DNA from: a bacterium
Lineage (GTDB): Bacteria > DRYD01
Length of the DNA: 64,000 nt
NCBI GenBank assembly: GCA_030549815.1
Contig: JAUQQQ010000001.1
Coordinates: 18,524 to 82,523, forward strand
Reading direction: 5' to 3'
The notes beneath the pieces were generated by a model. It was not told the DNA's origin. It was given only the letters and a program-made list of their open reading frames with translations, and ran no database searches. This document shows, in pieces, positions 182-57,699 of this stretch (position 1 is its first letter; each line of letters begins with the position of its first letter). Position numbers and translations under genes: made by a program.

Positions 182-590
182 CACAAATAATTTTCTATTT
201 TTCCCTTATTCAACCTTTTAAGTAATATACCCTTAGTTGGAAGTTATAACTTTTTGGATTCTTTTGTAGTACATTGTGCCAAATTTGCTACAGTGTAACA
301 TACTTTACATAAACTATCAAACAGTAAGCCAAAAGCAAGGAATTGCCGCTATTTCAAAGCTAAAAATTCTGAATATCCACACGCAAAAACCATTTACAAA
401 AACCCATACACTTACTTATCGTTTTTTCTACCAATCTGGTTTTCTGTTGATAATAACATTTCCAATCGTCTCACTTTATCAAGATTTCCATTATTTTAAT
501 TAAGTATTTTTTTTACAAAAAACCAAGTTTTTTAACATTTTTTACAAAAAAAATGTTTTTTAAAAAAGAAAATTTTTAATAAAGTAAAAC
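182..590. other. about 410-bp intergenic region, no convincing gene
   Basis: This is AT-rich sequence between the divergent DUF2085 and coiled-coil genes. The 75-codon ORF of the track (276..503, +) has no ribosome binding site and its composition does not look like a protein. A short stretch on the minus strand (around 400-470) reads like an amphipathic helix but is interrupted by stops, so a remnant is possible and unproven. The right part holds T/A tracts and two TTTACA boxes that probably belong to the promoter of the next gene. Confidence 0.4.
534..549 (+). promoter_or_regulatory. AACATTTTTTACAAAA motif upstream of the coiled-coil gene
   Basis: The 16-mer AACATTTTTTACAAAA lies about 55 bp before the start at 605, with a second TTTACA at about 512. 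Nearly the same string is found before the NlpC gene (4093) and the sigH gene (50715), and a reduced form before the lytic transglycosylase (about 56652). It may be a -35-like element or a regulator site. The shared motif is seen; its role is inferred. Confidence 0.4.
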
Positions 591-604
591 AGGAGGTGAT
601 GAAG

Positions 605-1249
605 ATGTCAGAAATCAATTCAGTAGGTTCCGGAGCAAGTAACGTATCATCTGCACAAAGTTCCTCAGCAGCACAGTCAAGTAATGTAAATCAAGGTTCT
701 TCAATAAATGAAACCCGAAATGAACAAACACAACAATCAAATAATGATGAAAACTTAAAAGACAAAGACAAAACCGAAAAAGATGAAGAAAAGAAAAAAT
801 TACAAGAAGAAATTGATAAACTTAAAAAGGAAATAGAAGAATTGAAAAAACAATTACAAAATCAACCCAAAGGAAATAGCAACTCTAATTCCCAAAAGCC
901 ACAGCAATCACAACAAGCACAAAATGATCCTAACCAAAACCAAAACGATCCTAATCAGTTGATACTTCAAGATATAGCAGCAGTTTTACAAGCTGCACAA
1001 CAAGGTGGACAAGGACTTCAACAAGCAGTAGGAAAACTAAAACAAGACTACACAATGATTAAATCAATGAATATTCCTCTTAAACCAGAAGTTGATCAAA
1101 TGGCACAACAAGTATTACAACAATTCGGAGGTGGCGCAGGCGTAGGACAAAATCCTGCAGGAATAGCGCAAGGGTTAAATCCAACACAAGCAGTTAATCC
1201 ACTTAACAATACAGCATCTGCCAATATAGGCAGACAAAACTTTATATAA
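605..1249 (+). CDS. Gln/Asn/Ser-rich coiled-coil protein of unknown function
   Basis: I do not recognise this protein. The track starts at GTG 596, but AGGAGGTGAT (591-600) overlaps that codon and lies 8 nt before ATG 605, so MSEINSVGSG... is the better start (214 aa). Residues 1-45 are Ser/Asn/Gln-rich with no Sec signal peptide. Residues about 55-90 are a charged coiled coil (EIDKLKKEIEELKKQL). A Gln/Pro/Asn linker follows, then a helical part (LILQDIAAVLQAAQQGGQG) and a Gly/Asn-rich tail. The gene stands alone, with a strong terminator at its 3' end. The soluble, low-complexity composition suggests a structural, secreted or surface protein, possibly exported by a non-Sec route; that is inference. 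It shares its upstream motif with two cell-wall hydrolase genes and sigH. Confidence 0.7.
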   Translation: MSEINSVGSGASNVSSAQSSSAAQSSNVNQGSSINETRNEQTQQSNNDENLKDKDKTEKDEEKKKLQEEIDKLKKEIEELKKQLQNQPKGNSNSNSQKPQQSQQAQNDPNQNQNDPNQLILQDIAAVLQAAQQGGQGLQQAVGKLKQDYTMIKSMNIPLKPEVDQMAQQVLQQFGGGAGVGQNPAGIAQGLNPTQAVNPLNNTASANIGRQNFI

Positions 1250-4016: not shown

Positions 4017-4092
4017 ACACGACCTCCTAACTCAAACACTATTTTTGCTCTTCTAATTAATCTATTTTTTTTAAAACATTTAATCCCTTTTT

Positions 4093-4108
4093 TACATTTT
4101 TTACAAAA
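4093..4108 (+). promoter_or_regulatory. TACATTTTTTACAAAA motif upstream of the NlpC gene
   Basis: It differs from the motif at 534 only in its first base, and lies about 75 bp before the start codon at 4181, inside the 164-bp divergent spacer between gmd and the NlpC/P60 gene. Confidence 0.4.
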
Positions 4109-4180: not shown

Positions 4181-5071
4181 ATGTTCGGTATAAATTCAAT
4201 CAATTTCAACATGACAAACATAAATACCCTTAACTTTAAATACAACCAAATATCTATTGGATTTAACAACCAAATTAATGATAGCTTAAATTTATCCGGA
4301 TTATCAAATACTAACCCGTTTGTGACAGGATTAATAGGTGGATTAACAGGAGGGTTAATTGGGGGATTACTTGGAGGACTTCTGTCAAATAACCCAATGT
4401 CTTTCGGTTTCCCTCAACAACAAAATAATCAAAACATTAATAACCAATTACTCTTAAGTTTACTAATACTCTTGGTTTCACTAATCTTATCGCAAAATTC
4501 ACAAGGGGGAGGAATACCATTCGGTACACCTTTTGGAAACCAACTCGGATCACCTCTTGGATCACCATTGGGCGCACCATTCGGAGGAATGAATCCTCCA
4601 TACTTTGGTTATCCCAATAGCCCCCTACAAAATAATCCTTTACAAAATAATCCTCTACAAAATAACCCTCAACAAAATAATCCAGCTGATCAATCCATAG
4701 GTGGAGGAAATGGGAACGTAGTTAATTTAGCTTTACAACAAGTTGGAAAACCCTATGTATTTGGAGCAGAGGGTCCAAACGCATTCGACTGCTCTGGTTT
4801 AGTTCAATGGGTATTTAAAAGATGCGGTAAAAATTTACCAAGAACAGCAGAAGAGCAATTCAGAGTAGGCACGCCAGTTCAAAAAAATCAGCTGCAACCG
4901 GGAGATTTGGTATTCTTTGCAAACACTTACAAACCAGGTATATCCCACGTAGGTATATATATAGGAAACGGGAAATTTGTCCATGCAGCAAACAGTAGAG
5001 AAGGAGTAAAAGTTAGTAGTCTATCGGAAAGCTATTACGTGCAACATTATGCTGGCGCCAAAAGAGTATAA
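4181..5071 (+). CDS. NlpC/P60 peptidoglycan endopeptidase with glycine-zipper N-terminal module
   Basis: 296 aa. The C-terminal 110 residues are an NlpC/P60 domain, which cleaves peptide links in peptidoglycan: catalytic Cys in FDCSGLVQW, His in SHVGIYIGNG, third residue in the HAAN region. The N-terminal 170 residues are unusual. MFGINSINFN begins a 45-residue Asn/Ile/Ser-rich stretch; then come a glycine zipper (GLIGGLTGGLIGGLLGGLL), a Gln/Asn linker, a hydrophobic helix (NQLLLSLLILLVSLIL), a PFG/PLG-rich linker and three to four PLQNN repeats. There is no normal Sec signal. The same order of parts occurs in the lytic transglycosylase at 56.7 kb. The start is set by AAGGGGGG just upstream of ATG 4181. 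The 3' end overlaps the convergent YfhO-like gene by 59 bp. Confidence 0.85.
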   Translation: MFGINSINFNMTNINTLNFKYNQISIGFNNQINDSLNLSGLSNTNPFVTGLIGGLTGGLIGGLLGGLLSNNPMSFGFPQQQNNQNINNQLLLSLLILLVSLILSQNSQGGGIPFGTPFGNQLGSPLGSPLGAPFGGMNPPYFGYPNSPLQNNPLQNNPLQNNPQQNNPADQSIGGGNGNVVNLALQQVGKPYVFGAEGPNAFDCSGLVQWVFKRCGKNLPRTAEEQFRVGTPVQKNQLQPGDLVFFANTYKPGISHVGIYIGNGKFVHAANSREGVKVSSLSESYYVQHYAGAKRV

Positions 5072-50804: not shown

Positions 50805-51536
50805 ATGATCACCTTGGAAAGTGGGAAGGAGAATTCTATGAAGAATAGAAAGAACAAAAACCTTAACACAAACTCATCCATATTTGATGAAATAGTGAGT
50901 GAAAATTTTGATGAAACTGATAACCTAAAAAACCTAAAAGATAATGAATTAGTAATGTTAGCAAAAAAAGGAAACAAAAAAGCAATATCAATTTTAATAA
51001 ACAAATATAAAAACTTTGTAAGAGCAAGGTCAAAATTTTACTTTATTATCGGTGCAGATAAAGAAGACATAGTCCAAGAAGGTTTAATTGGCCTATATAA
51101 AGCAATCAGAGATTATAATCCGGATAAAAAAACATCATTTAGAGCATTCGCTGAACTTTGTATAATGAGACAAATAATAACAGCAATAAAAACAGCAACA
51201 AGACAAAAACATACTCCCCTTAATTCATACATATCTCTTAACAAACCTATCTTCGAAGAAAATGGAGAAAGAGTTTTAAGTGATGTCATCGTAAGCACAA
51301 GAAATGTTAATCCTGAAGAAATCTACATAACCCTTGAACTTACAAAAGACATTAAAGAAAAAATGAAAAAATACCTAAGCTCCCTGGAAGCAAAAGTCCT
51401 ATCAGAATACCTACGAGGATTATCATACCACGAAGTAGCAAAAAGCATAGGAAAACACATAAAATCAGTAGATAATGCACTACAAAGAATCAAAAGAAAA
51501 ATCCAACAAACTATTAAAGAATCATACGGAGATTAA
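50805..51536 (+). CDS. sigH: SigH (sigma-H) like RNA polymerase sigma factor
   Basis: 243 aa. Very close to the SigH/Spo0H pattern: NELVMLAKKGNKKAISILIN, KNFVRARSKFYFIIGADKED, IVQEGLIGLYKAIRDYNPDK, FRAFAELCIMRQIITAIKTA, TRQKHTPLNSYISLNKPIF, then region 4 LSSLEAKVLSEYLRGLSYHE and SVDNALQRIKRKIQ. In Bacillus it governs the transition to stationary phase, competence and sporulation; here no sporulation genes are seen. Two starts each have a ribosome site: ATG 50805 after AAAGGGGG and ATG 50838 after GGAAGGAG, so two N-termini are possible. Overlaps rsmG by 62 bp. Shares an upstream motif with cell-wall hydrolase genes. Confidence 0.9.
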   Translation: MITLESGKENSMKNRKNKNLNTNSSIFDEIVSENFDETDNLKNLKDNELVMLAKKGNKKAISILINKYKNFVRARSKFYFIIGADKEDIVQEGLIGLYKAIRDYNPDKKTSFRAFAELCIMRQIITAIKTATRQKHTPLNSYISLNKPIFEENGERVLSDVIVSTRNVNPEEIYITLELTKDIKEKMKKYLSSLEAKVLSEYLRGLSYHEVAKSIGKHIKSVDNALQRIKRKIQQTIKESYGD

Positions 51537-52328: not shown

Positions 52329-52355
52329 GTTTTCATCGTACCCATGTATTGAAAC
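52329..52355 (+). CRISPR. single orphan CRISPR-type repeat
   Basis: GTTTTCATCGTACCCATGTATTGAAAC (27 nt, quoted in parts: GTTTTCATCGTACC ... ATTGAAAC) closely resembles the 30-nt repeats of many thermophiles (GTTTTxATCGTACCTATGAGGxATTGAAAC type) with a small internal deletion. Only one copy is in the window, with no spacer array. It abuts the stop of the csx1 gene, so it is probably the remnant of an array beside a type III locus. Confidence 0.55.
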
Positions 52356-53716
52356 TATGATATCAAGAATTTAACTATTTTATCTTCATAGTCCTCATTG
52401 ACTTTTATAAATATATTGCTACCTTCTTTTCTCAGTTTTATACTGTTATATTCAAACCCCGCATGAGCAAAAAAATTCCTATCACGAATTTCACCACTAT
52501 TCAATTTATTTAATCCATTTTTTTTCCTATATTTGTTTTCTATTTCAATGTATGTTTCATAATCATTAGTAATAAAATCTATCTTTCCTTTGTCTTCTTT
52601 CCTTATATTATCTAATTCAACATCAGTTCTATTTTTTTCAATTTGAAATTCTCTAAATAGATGATCATTTACTTTCTCAACGTCAGAAATTTTTATTTCA
52701 CTATCGTTTTTAATTCCCATTTTGTCAAGAATTAAACTCAAAATAAAAGCTTTTGATAGGTTCTCAACATGATTGTTAAGAGATAATTCCCTTGTTAAAA
52801 CTATTTTATTATCGCTTTTTGATAGTGAAATAAAATTGAAAAACTCTTCAAAAATTTTTCGGGTTAATTCCATAATACTTTCTGCTTTTGGTAAATAATG
52901 GATAACATGCAAAGGAAGTTTATGGTAAAATGACGCTAAGAATAAAAGTGTTTTTTTGTAAAGTTCTTTTTCACTATTCTCAAATCTATATTTTTTTATC
53001 CCTATAGTTCTCTTCCTTTCATTATCCAAATCTTTAAAAACAATCAAAGATCTTGATAAATCCTTATCATTTACAAAATAAACTCTTGGAATAATAAATG
53101 TTTCCTCAATTATGTTAATATTCAAACAATCAGGGTTTACCCTACCAATGAATGGATCTGAATTAACAACATTAATTTTTATATTCTTGAAAAAAAAGCC
53201 AAAAACATTAAGTATTAACCTTACAATCGTATACATATTTACTGGCATATAATTAATACCATGGGTAATATCTATTATCACTTTAATTTCATGGTCATTT
53301 TTTAAATCATTATCATTTAGTAGCATTTGAGCAAAAAGTTTGGATAATTCATAAAATATATGGTAATAGAAATCAGTACCTTTACCTTGTATTTTCAATT
53401 CCCCATAATCACCTGTTGCAAAAGAAACTATAACCTGCATTTTATTCATTATTTTTTCGAAGTTTAATTCATTTATTATATAATCCCTTATTTTTTCTTC
53501 TACTAAACTCAATAACTGGGAATAATTTTGAACAGAAAGGACTTTATTATTCTCAGCAGCCAAAGAATAAGTAGAAAGAATTATTATTTTATCAAAATTT
53601 TCAGATTCCTCAAGTAAAGGTAAGGCGATTTTGGATTTAAATGTTTTTCCATTGTATTTATATTGAATTTCCTTCCAGCCTGCGGAATTTCCCCAAGTCA
53701 TTACATATATTTTCAT
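52355..53716 (-). CDS. csx1: CRISPR-associated CARF-HEPN ribonuclease, Csx1 family
   Basis: 453 aa from ATG 53716 with GGGAGGTGATG upstream; the track's GTG is three codons earlier. N-terminal CARF domain: MKIYVMTWGNSAGWKEIQY, and the DxTHG signature in IIDITHGINYMPVNMY. The C-terminal helical HEPN domain has the catalytic R-x4-H in GEIRDRNFFAHAGFEY. Csx1 proteins are activated by cyclic tetra-adenylate made by Cas10 and then cut RNA unspecifically. No cas10 or other cas genes lie in the window; an orphan CRISPR repeat and a CARF fragment flank it. Sensor and nuclease motifs look intact. Confidence 0.85.
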   Translation of the reverse strand: MKIYVMTWGNSAGWKEIQYKYNGKTFKSKIALPLLEESENFDKIIILSTYSLAAENNKVLSVQNYSQLLSLVEEKIRDYIINELNFEKIMNKMQVIVSFATGDYGELKIQGKGTDFYYHIFYELSKLFAQMLLNDNDLKNDHEIKVIIDITHGINYMPVNMYTIVRLILNVFGFFFKNIKINVVNSDPFIGRVNPDCLNINIIEETFIIPRVYFVNDKDLSRSLIVFKDLDNERKRTIGIKKYRFENSEKELYKKTLLFLASFYHKLPLHVIHYLPKAESIMELTRKIFEEFFNFISLSKSDNKIVLTRELSLNNHVENLSKAFILSLILDKMGIKNDSEIKISDVEKVNDHLFREFQIEKNRTDVELDNIRKEDKGKIDFITNDYETYIEIENKYRKKNGLNKLNSGEIRDRNFFAHAGFEYNSIKLRKEGSNIFIKVNEDYEDKIVKFLIS

Positions 53717-53754
53717 GTTCATCACCTCCCTTTTTATTCAACATAGATAACATC

Positions 53755-54067: not shown

Positions 54068-54087
54068 CCTCTCAATAAATTGAGAGG
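54068..54087. repeat. IS605 right-end hairpin
   Basis: CCTCTCAAT-aa-ATTGAGAGG, a 9-bp palindrome overlapping the tnpB stop codon. In this family the right-end hairpin is recognised by TnpA and also forms the 3' part of the TnpB guide RNA (omega/reRNA) scaffold. Confidence 0.7.
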
Positions 54088-55193
54088 CTTCCTGCTTCAT
54101 TGGTAGATGACTCGTAGACTGGTATCTCTACCATTCCGCCGTCAGAGCTATCTCCACAGGCTTGAGTTCGGACAGTTCCTGTCCTACCACTCTTAAGGTG
54201 AGTGACCCCATATTTTAATAAGTTTATACTTGCATTTATATCTCTGTCATGCTCCGATTTACATTCAGGACATATCCATTCTCTATCACTGAGTGTTAAA
54301 AAATCGTTTTTATATCCACATACATTACAAAGTTTAGATGATGGATAAAACCTATTTACAAATACTGTTTTCCTATCATACCATTGAGCTTTATAGGTTA
54401 GATATCTTACAAACTTACTCCAACCTACATCTGATATTGATTTTGAAAGATGTTTATTTTTGAGAAGACCCTTCACATGCAAATCCTCAAGAATAATGGC
54501 TTGGTTTTCGCTCACTACTCTCTTGGATAGCTTGTGAAGAAAATCTTCTCTCTGATTTGCTACTTTCTCATGATATTTTGCTACTTTTAATCTCTGCTTT
54601 TCAAAATTCTTAGAACCTTTCTGTTTCCTACTTAACTTCCTTTGCTCTCTTACTAATCTTTTCTCTGCTTTCTGTAAGTGTTTTGGATTATTTATTTTCT
54701 CTATATTTCCATCTTCATCTACCATAACAGCAAAATCTTTTACTCCAAAATCTATTGCACATATCTTATCTATAGGTTTCTTAAGTTTAGGCAGGTATAA
54801 AAGTCCCCATTTTTTATCAATTCTCTCTATCTTAAAACCTTGTGGAAGATAAAAGCTACCACCATTCTTTTTCTTTTTAAAAACAGGAAAGTCTGATTTC
54901 TTTTTAAAGAAATTTTTAAAAGCTCTGTCAAGGTTAAAAACCGCTTCCTGTAATGATTGTGAATACACTTCAGCAAGAAATGGATATTCCTTTTTTAAAG
55001 TAGGCAATTGCTTTTTATAGTCATGTACATTCCACTTAATTCCAGATTCTTTGTAACATTCTTTTGCTTTAGCAAGCATATAGTTATAAACAAATCTCAC
55101 ACACCCAACAGCTTTTTTTAGAAATAGTTTTTGTTCATTTGTTGGATACAACCTGAATTTATAAGAGTAATTTGCTTGCCTTTTGTTTCTCAT
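54072..55193 (-). CDS. tnpB: TnpB, RNA-guided nuclease of IS605
   Basis: 373 aa. N-terminal wedge/REC-like part (ANYSYKFRLYPTNEQKLFLK, CVRFVYNYMLAKAKECY). The RuvC catalytic residues are all seen: Asp in CAIDFGVKDFAV, Glu in IILEDLHVKG, Asp in EHDRDINASINLLKYG. Zinc ribbon CNVCGYKNDF ... CPECKSEHDRD. TnpB is the ancestor of Cas12 and cuts DNA at the donor site next to its TAM, guided by RNA from the right end. The C-terminus ends inside the right-end hairpin. Its ATG overlaps the stop of the tnpA remnant. It seems functional. Confidence 0.93.
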   Translation of the reverse strand: MRNKRQANYSYKFRLYPTNEQKLFLKKAVGCVRFVYNYMLAKAKECYKESGIKWNVHDYKKQLPTLKKEYPFLAEVYSQSLQEAVFNLDRAFKNFFKKKSDFPVFKKKKNGGSFYLPQGFKIERIDKKWGLLYLPKLKKPIDKICAIDFGVKDFAVMVDEDGNIEKINNPKHLQKAEKRLVREQRKLSRKQKGSKNFEKQRLKVAKYHEKVANQREDFLHKLSKRVVSENQAIILEDLHVKGLLKNKHLSKSISDVGWSKFVRYLTYKAQWYDRKTVFVNRFYPSSKLCNVCGYKNDFLTLSDREWICPECKSEHDRDINASINLLKYGVTHLKSGRTGTVRTQACGDSSDGGMVEIPVYESSTNEAGSLSIY

Positions 55194-55515
55194 AAACCTT
55201 TCCTTTGATTCTCTATATATTTTTTTATAGCATCTTCAGAAATAGAACTTATAGTTTCTATATAATATTTATGTATTTCACAATTAGGCTTGGCGACACC
55301 TTTGGATAAGCAGATGCAAAGATATGAACATGATCTTGCTCTCCAACTTCTATCTGAGCCACCTCAAAACCTTTATCTTTGGCTATCTCTTGCACAAGCT
55401 CTTTAAGTCGTTTCTCTATATCCTCAGTTAACACAGGTTTCCTATATTTCGTCGAAAACACTATGTGATAATTACAGTTATATACACATGTCCTTGCATG
55501 TTTAAGTTTCTTCAT
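55190..55515 (-). pseudogene. tnpA: tnpA (Y1/HUH transposase) with internal deletion
   Basis: ATG 55515 begins MKKLKHARTCVYNCNYHIVF and keeps the HUH motif DHVHIFASAYPKVSPS, but the frame stops after VKYINII (85 aa). In another frame the sequence at once continues with IETISSISEDAIKKYIENQR and a stop that overlaps the tnpB ATG; this is the normal TnpA C-terminus. About 45 residues between, including the helix with the catalytic Tyr (family YYVSTVG), are gone. The transposase is therefore inactive; mobility would need TnpA in trans. Confidence 0.85.
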
Positions 55516-56125: not shown

Positions 56126-56706
56126 ATACAAAGAAGTATCCAATATCCATAAGTTAGATAAGTTAGAAATGAATTGAGCATTTCATATTTTTTTGTAAAA
56201 GAGTAGATACAACAAGTATTACTAACGCAACTTAAGAAAAAATTAGGGTTTCTTAAAGAAATCAATAGTATAGCATTATACAATACCAAATTTCAATTTG
56301 AAAAAACAATAAAAACAATGCCTCCACTCAACAGTAAATTTTTTCATTTACATTATGTTATCCATACCACTTTTTACTGTTAATAATGCTCTTAATAAAA
56401 ACATCACTTTTTGGGATTTTTGTTTTTTGATTTCTCTAAGAGCAGGAAAAATTTCCTTCAAAAAATAACCTATCAAATTTTATCCAATAATACCATTAGA
56501 AAAATGCTATTAAACATAATGAAATGTTCAGCACATCTTGTCACTTACCAAGCAGAGATATGCTTAAAGATATCCAAGAAATCGAAAAAATTTGTTTTTT
56601 TACAAATTTTAAAAAAAATTAACAATATTAACAATTTTAGGCTTTAATTTTTTTATTTTTTTTACATATATAAAATGGGTAAAAAAAGAAAAGGAGGAAT
56701 AAGTAT
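56126..56706. other. about 580-bp spacer, no intact gene recognised
   Basis: Very AT-rich. The track ORFs 56095..56289 (-) and 56411..56647 (+) have no ribosome site and no recognisable domain, though a decayed ORF cannot be excluded. The right end (56590-56680) contains TTTTTTTACAAA and TTTTTTTTACATATATAAAAT, probably the promoter of the lytic transglycosylase gene. Confidence 0.4.
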
Positions 56707-57699
56707 ATGTTTGGTATAGGCCAAATATACAACAGCTTCCAATTAAGTCACCTTACTTTGAGTGGTATAAACGTTCCCAATATTTCAATCAGTAGTATTT
56801 CTATAAATGATGTTTTCTCATCAAATAATTTCAGTCCAAATATGTTAAACCAAGTAAATGGTTTTATGATAGGTTCCTTATTAGGTAGTATGTTAGGTGG
56901 TTTAATAGGTAGTCAATTGTCAAGTCCATTTTCCTTAGGAGCCCCTGGCAATATGTTTGCATCCCCATTCGGTAACCCCAATAATCAGCTAATAATGATG
57001 TTATTACAATTACTTTTATCAATATTGATGCAGGGTGGAATAGCAAATCAAACACCATTTGGTGGTATACCTTCAATGCCATTTGGTGGTATGCCTTCAA
57101 TGCCATTTGGTGGTATGCCTTCAATGCCATTTGGTGGTATGCCTTCAATGCCATTCGGTGGTATGCCTTCAATGCCATTCGGTGGTATGCCCTCAATGCC
57201 ATTTGGTGGTATGCCTTCTCCAGGTAACTTCGGAGCAATTCCTCCAAATTTTGGAGGAATACAAAATCCCGGGTTTAGCAATTTCGTCCCCCGCGATAGA
57301 ATAGATCAAATAATACTTCAAGCAGCAAGAAAATATAATCTTGATCCTGCATTAATAAAAGCTGTTATAAAGCAAGAAAGTGGATTTAATCCCAATGCAA
57401 GGTCTCATGCAGGTGCAATGGGATTAATGCAATTGATGCCAGGTACTGCAAGGTCATTAGGAGTTGATAATCCATTCGATCCTGTTCAAAACATAATGGG
57501 TGGTGCAAAGTACTTGAGACAAATGTTGGATATGTTTGGTGGAAGATTAGAGTTAGCTTTAGCAGCATACAATGCAGGCCCAGGAAATGTAAAAAAATAC
57601 GGAGGAATACCACCATTCTCTGAAACCCAAAATTACGTAAGAAAAGTTATGGCATATTACCAACAATACAAAGCTGAAATGAGAACTATGGTAGCTTAA
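56707..57699 (+). CDS. lytic transglycosylase (SLT) with glycine-zipper N-terminal module
   Basis: 330 aa. The C-terminal 130 residues are a soluble lytic transglycosylase domain that cuts glycan strands of peptidoglycan: [20 protein letters not shown], catalytic Glu in [32 protein letters not shown] and [19 protein letters not shown]. The N-terminal 190 residues match the plan of the NlpC protein at 4.2 kb: MFGI start, Asn/Ser/Ile-rich 45 residues, glycine zipper ([20 protein letters not shown]), hydrophobic helix ([17 protein letters not shown]), then a PFG-rich linker, here six GGMPSMPF repeats. No Sec signal peptide. AAAGGAGG upstream of ATG 56707. It stands alone. Confidence 0.88.
57061..57204 (+). 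repeat. six tandem 24-bp repeats inside the SLT gene
   Basis: Unit GGTGGTATGCCTTCAATGCC+ATTT repeated six times (57061-57204) with few silent changes, then a partial seventh. Encodes GG(M/I)PSMPF. Near-identical units suggest that copy number can vary by slippage, changing linker length. Confidence 0.9.

Follow-up and report, generated by a model that had tools for sequence, protein, structure and literature searches.

Two wall hydrolases with unrelated catalytic domains, encoded on the same strand and 52 kb apart in the 64,000-nucleotide stretch of bacterial DNA analyzed here (the window), begin with homologous N-terminal modules that are lineage specific and restricted to one family in this sample. 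The module genes have a cis-element in common with a nonhomologous coiled-coil gene, which suggests that module and coiled-coil genes operate as one system from this element. We propose, at a probability of about 0.48, that the module is an uncleaved, lineage-specific membrane anchor that oligomerizes and tethers wall hydrolases. Such enzymes need confinement in place and time, and an interchangeable module on three hydrolase families, accompanied by a stand-alone partner and a promoter element, would be a new organization, found in an uncultured lineage.

Two unrelated wall hydrolases begin with a homologous module

The first protein (positions 4181..5071, forward strand; 296 aa) belongs to the NlpC/P60 peptidases by its Pfam NLPC_P60 domain (PF00877; residues 189-295, E = 1.1e-32, 112.6 bits against a curated cut-off of 23) and by the motif DCSGLV, read as DCSGLVQW in the sequence. 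The second (56707..57699, forward strand; 330 aa) is an SLT lytic transglycosylase (PF01464; residues 202-309, E = 2.1e-35, 121.2 bits against a curated cut-off of 21.3). An earlier note on this DNA had described different catalytic domains behind one N-terminal plan with its parts in the same order, and both observations are borne out by Pfam and by the sequence: each N-terminus runs from MFGI through about 45 Asn/Ser/Ile-rich residues, a glycine zipper, a linker, and NQL with a hydrophobic helix into PFG/PLG or QNNPL repeats. The MFGI start holds for both window proteins but is not general, as relatives begin MWGI, MINF, or MFNN.

In the NlpC protein the module spans residues 1-106 (4181..4498) and comprises a charge-poor N-terminal tail with a near-invariant single acidic residue, Asp34 (4280..4282), a weakly hydrophobic glycine-zipper helix at residues 46-68 (4316..4384), a linker, and a strongly hydrophobic helix 2 at residues 85-106, NQLLLSLLILLVSLILS (4433..4498). 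The SLT copy occupies residues 1-110 (56707..57036), with the zipper at 50-71, helix 2 at 91-110, and the acidic residue at Asp35. In module-bearing hydrolases 70-85 residues of Pro/Gly/Gln/Asn repeats lie between helix 2 and the enzyme; in the window this linker is a flexible repeat region in the NlpC copy (4499..4720) and a PFGGMPSM tandem repeat in the SLT copy (57037..57291), and all of these features read on the forward strand.

Because BLASTP between the two N-termini gave a weak match (E = 5e-4) and composition alone could mislead, we compared profiles against shuffled controls. A profile of three NlpC-type modules and one of three SLT-type modules, drawn from different genomes, matched at a probability of 98.7% with a score of 90 over about 100 columns, and none of 100 controls, whose columns were shuffled within four segments so as to keep plan and composition, reached that score (best 37.7). 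The earlier note had named the lack of a profile-profile match as the result that would overturn its claim; the match is there, and homology beyond plan and composition is confirmed. Against the NlpC profile, the stand-alone proteins described below scored 67.7 (controls at most 28.5) and a second NlpC type 44.9 (controls at most 31.5).

A single Asp at position 34-43, some 10-15 residues ahead of the zipper, is present in every module, which is otherwise nearly charge free; the first 100-140 residues of members usually hold at most one Lys or Arg. Hydrophobicity was summed on an unweighted biological scale, without position weighting, so that the sums are meaningful in comparison alone: helix 2 gave -2.2 to -5.3 in the enzyme-borne modules and reached -6.5 to -7.0 in three of the stand-alone proteins. 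Two Sec signals encoded in the same genome gave -2.1 and -3.6, and a membrane protein gave -5.7. Helix 2 thus matches or exceeds both Sec signals. The zipper sums lie near or above zero (about -0.6 to +2), and the zipper would therefore hardly insert alone and would need partners. AlphaFold2 predicted coil followed by helices at 46-68 and 85-106 for the NlpC module, at a low pLDDT of 46 and with two usable alignment rows; confidence for the SLT protein was likewise poor (pLDDT 48).

Signal peptides and start codons

As the earlier note stated, both hydrolases are without a classical Sec signal. By inspection, neither has the positive N-region, near-N-terminal hydrophobic core, and cleavage site or lipobox of a Sec-signal or lipoprotein precursor; Lys and Arg are absent from SLT residues 1-114, the NlpC copy has one Lys, and neither contains Cys. 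A strong purine-rich Shine-Dalgarno sequence stands ahead of each ATG. Alternative start codons that would yield a signal peptide, the second finding that the earlier note said would overturn its claim, were rejected, since in-frame stops precede the ATG by 10 codons (NlpC) and 8 codons (SLT), so that none can be added upstream. The conclusion once drawn from the missing signal, namely a non-Sec route, does not follow, because helix 2 is hydrophobic enough to serve as an ordinary Sec/SRP/YidC membrane signal.

Distribution, fusions, and a stand-alone form

A profile search found the module in all six family genomes (G000-G005, of which G000 is the genome of the window). The earlier note had proposed looking for the module on other wall enzymes in related genomes, and it occurs on NlpC/P60 enzymes (G000, G002, G003, G004, G005), on SLT enzymes (G000, G002, G004, G005), and on a GH24-type lysozyme (one copy, G005). 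Stand-alone module proteins of about 171-183 aa, with about 28% Gly and alternating F/N/S strands at both ends, are encoded in G000, G001, G002, G004, and G005, by eye next to a threonyl-tRNA-synthetase-like gene in the first genus and to groEL in the other; contig ends in G001 and G003 carry further fragments of the module. Three module copies are present in the own genome, read in selected stretches, the third being a stand-alone gene outside the window (C3:173056-173487). A scan of genome contigs returned SLT-domain relatives only. Two carrier genes are interrupted and may be pseudogenes or draft-assembly errors: in the GH24 gene (L035:3700-4682, G005:C1) a TAG codon stands in frame between the parts encoding module and lysozyme, and in the NlpC gene of G002 (L029:10030-10972) a frame change breaks the catalytic domain.

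Matches in the order-level relative G006 and in non-family members among 290 genomes were short zipper-only stretches. The supposition that the module is undescribed stands, in that searches of Pfam, NCBIfam, PHROG, and PDB gave no family that includes the N-terminus, neither N-terminus has a Pfam match above cut-off, and the PDB holds no relatives of the module. PHROG matches were confined to the catalytic domains, neither the module region nor the stand-alone protein having any, and two scans of viral contigs found no relatives of the module; on these grounds a viral origin was rejected. By these searches the hydrolases do not qualify as members of a phage lysis module (holin/endolysin).

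A common twin element upstream of module and coiled-coil genes

The motif TTTTWACAWTTTTWACAAA lies 90-112 bases before the start codon of 14 module genes, and all 14 examined have TTWACA-N3-TTWACA or a close variant. When each gene's own site was left out of the scoring, 13 of the 14 module genes reached an element score of at least 6, compared with 7 of 211 other genes. In the window, the twin element stands on the forward strand upstream of the NlpC gene (TTTTTTACATTTTTTACAAA, 4088..4107), of the SLT gene (AAATTAACAATATTAACAAT, 56616..56635), and of a coiled-coil gene starting at 605 (TTTTTAACATTTTTTACAAA, 528..547). These contain the only exact TTWACA-N3-TTWACA sites on either strand of the window (at 4091, 56619, and 532, respectively), three where 0.2 are expected, a number never attained in 100 shuffles. 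In 208 kb of own-genome sequence there are three further exact copies, whose coordinates place them within ORFs, and a stricter 17-base form has two exact matches in 1.6 Mb, ahead of the NlpC and coiled-coil genes. Matches with one mismatch occur genome-wide at chance (17 in all, against 21 for a reversed control).

Among module paralogues a common promoter could simply have been inherited; the coiled-coil gene is not homologous to them, and its family therefore provides an independent test. It encodes an S/N-rich coiled-coil protein with neither signal peptide nor transmembrane segment (605..1249, forward strand), a putative member of the set by its twin element, its orthologues, and a relative in G006. 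Orthologues are 63-70% identical within the family, and those in G001, G002, and G003 also have the element, making four species in all. In G006 (44% GC), the sole exact element in 48 kb precedes a coiled-coil relative (L141) followed in the same protein by an NlpC/P60 domain, which is truncated where the contig stops (24.4 bits; cut-off 23), and this fusion too has neither signal nor transmembrane segment. The coiled-coil protein is thus tied to wall enzymes in two ways, by a common promoter element and by gene fusion.

As to the nature of the element, a plain -35/-10 promoter was rejected because inspection by eye of the sequences read showed no -10 box 17 bases past either half-site; a sigma-70 scan found nothing above shuffles, and Rfam gave no match in the window. 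The element resembles sites of WalR autolysin regulons in being, on the reverse strand, a direct repeat of TGTWAA half-sites upstream of wall-hydrolase genes. In contrast to the 11-base period of the WalR site (in Staphylococcus aureus TGTHH-N6-WGTNDD; PMC10746227), the period here is 9, and a WalR site was rejected for this spacing.

Elsewhere in the own genome, three one-mismatch twin elements lie within 290 bases (G000:C18:43019-43309), with no ORF of at least 50 aa just downstream. The window also encodes a sigma-70 family factor (50805-51536; cut-off exceeded by region 2 but not by region 4), with a related TTAACA/TTTACA repeat of 11-base spacing upstream of it.

A putative membrane anchor and its alternatives

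In the mechanism we favor, helix 2 would insert the module, uncleaved, into the inner membrane, and the glycine zipper would bring modules together into oligomers that also include the own genome's stand-alone protein. Long Pro/Gly-rich linkers would then tether SLT, NlpC/P60, and GH24-type enzymes in the periplasm, close enough to reach the wall, and the twin TTWACA would be a dedicated activator site turning the module genes on jointly with the coiled-coil partner. The module may be N-out, its tail possibly translocated by Sec/YidC; by analogy with small phage coat proteins, the lack of charges other than one Asp would permit such translocation and make the tail suited to it. We infer insertion, oligomerization, periplasmic topology, and joint function from these features, and several observations weigh against the anchor. 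Helix 2 has no positive charges on its flanks, which leaves topology unpredicted and even a cytoplasmic hydrolase conceivable; the structure prediction has a pLDDT of 46 and the module has no solved or profiled relative; and the coiled-coil gene and the G006 fusion, both without signal or transmembrane segment, are unexplained by a pure membrane-anchor model.

That signal-less fusion is the best hint of a non-Sec route, and the flagellar or type III-like route raised in the earlier note holds to the extent that the lineage encodes an apparatus, although no result ties the module to it. FlhA was detected in 6/6 lineage genomes tested, the order-level relative included, FliF in 5/6, and rod proteins in 6/6; the own genome further encodes FliI clade 2, FlgC, FlgF, FlgG, a FliK-like match below cut-off, and, by eye, an FlhB adjoining FlhA, as well as a signal-less SLT within the rod-gene cluster that is separate from the module-bearing one. 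The flagellar-type genes are scattered (G000:C6:58000-61800 [L027/L028], C7, C9, C22, and C1; also G001-G004 and G006). With positive controls, flagellin was found in 0/7 genomes, and FliD_C gave none above cut-off and one subthreshold match (G001). These mostly incomplete genomes may encode a divergent flagellin or hook protein, one candidate for a short hook being a 271-aa FlgE/F/G-type protein; judged from gene content, the machine is possibly a filament-less flagellar secretion machine. Flagellar genes have been described in Calescamantes genomes of 35% GC (PMC4791363); the GC content of the window is about 30%.

With such an apparatus encoded, with module enzymes lacking a Sec signal, and with a signal-less SLT among the rod genes, the module might instead be an export and assembly domain for a flagellar-type type III apparatus, its N-terminal tail acting as signal and the hydrolases leaving in place of a filament. 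We consider this unlikely. Module genes were not beside flagellar genes in the stretches read, the order-level relative has the apparatus yet only a weak zipper match to the module, and the flagellar (rod) operons have only weak versions of the cis-element. Moreover, type III-secreted membrane proteins are moderately hydrophobic (PMC6110835), a level that helix 2 exceeds, and the Sec route can serve known flagellar SLT enzymes (PMC8517470); a type III signal in the tail was supported by no test here. Somewhat less probable still is a fuller version, in which a filament-less basal body and export gate would be repurposed to deliver coregulated signal-less hydrolases (NlpC/P60, SLT, and GH24) and coiled-coil partners, the charge-free zipper module combining export signal with docking and oligomerization domain. 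Were the filament-less route true, flagellar export would have turned to wall-enzyme delivery, which would bear on the role of filament-less machines.

Two further readings take the glycine-rich segments as their starting point. Zipper helices could form a pore that passes the hydrolases at a programmed lysis or fusion step, resembling in effect signal-anchor-release endolysins or holin/endolysin pairs; glycine-zipper segments and the missing signal peptide would fit, as would the joining of several wall-cutting activities to one module and the existence of a membrane-type partner that stands alone, but the genes sit among housekeeping genes and are kept in 6/6 genomes, and the empty PHROG and viral-contig searches also speak against this improbable scheme. 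A slightly smaller chance goes to self-assembling Gly/Phe-rich proteins of a gel- or fiber-like envelope or matrix, with the hydrolases as minor subunits, as the glycine content and alternating strands of the stand-alone form and the strong Shine-Dalgarno sequences might indicate; helix 2 is very hydrophobic for such a role.

Comparison with known systems

The membrane-anchor reading has its closest parallels in membrane- or signal-anchored wall hydrolases such as those with MltG-type anchors and the SAR endolysins, in which, as here, a hydrophobic segment at the N-terminus precedes the domain that cuts peptidoglycan. Unlike these, the module has no positively charged N-region, and one anchor is common to three unrelated catalytic families and a stand-alone copy. 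Pfam glycine-zipper families (PF13488 Gly-zipper_Omp, PF05433 Rick_17kDa_Anti, and PF13441 YMGG) have a similar GxxxG-type hydrophobic segment, but the module gave subthreshold local matches (E = 0.018-0.12) that do not place it in them, their models have no conserved Asp, second helix, or enzyme fusions, and no Cys-bearing signal peptide stands at the N-terminus of the module. Flagellar rod-associated muramidases (the FlgJ C-domain; flagellar SLT, PMC8517470) likewise combine wall enzymes with a flagellar-type export machine; in contrast to FlgJ, the module has no FlgJ-type rod-binding domain, and module genes lie outside the rod cluster.

Neighboring observations

The family also conserves a protein of some 780 aa (L112:14101-16452 in G004; L143, G000:C7:39230-41341; and relatives) that has a helical region, MGLPG repeats, glycine zippers, and N/F/S-rich ends, with no Sec signal or family match, and is vaguely translocator- or tape-measure-like. 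A zinc carboxypeptidase (L112:4673-5893; Peptidase_M14, E = 6e-72) begins with an EF-hand-like part, apparently lacks a signal peptide, and is perhaps another signal-less exported enzyme of the lineage. In the own genome, by eye, two LAGLIDADG homing endonuclease-like ORFs lie in an rRNA-like stretch (G000:C3:164600-166000, L026), possibly marking rRNA introns. Just upstream of the SLT gene region, the window has by eye a TnpB-like and TnpA-like pair of the IS200/IS605 type (54072-55515). In two relatives (L034, G002:C28; L116, G003:C138), a module gene or fragment stands beside what is, by eye, a type III CRISPR-like gene set, and a similar CARF-like ORF in the window (52355-53725) lies 3 kb from the SLT gene.
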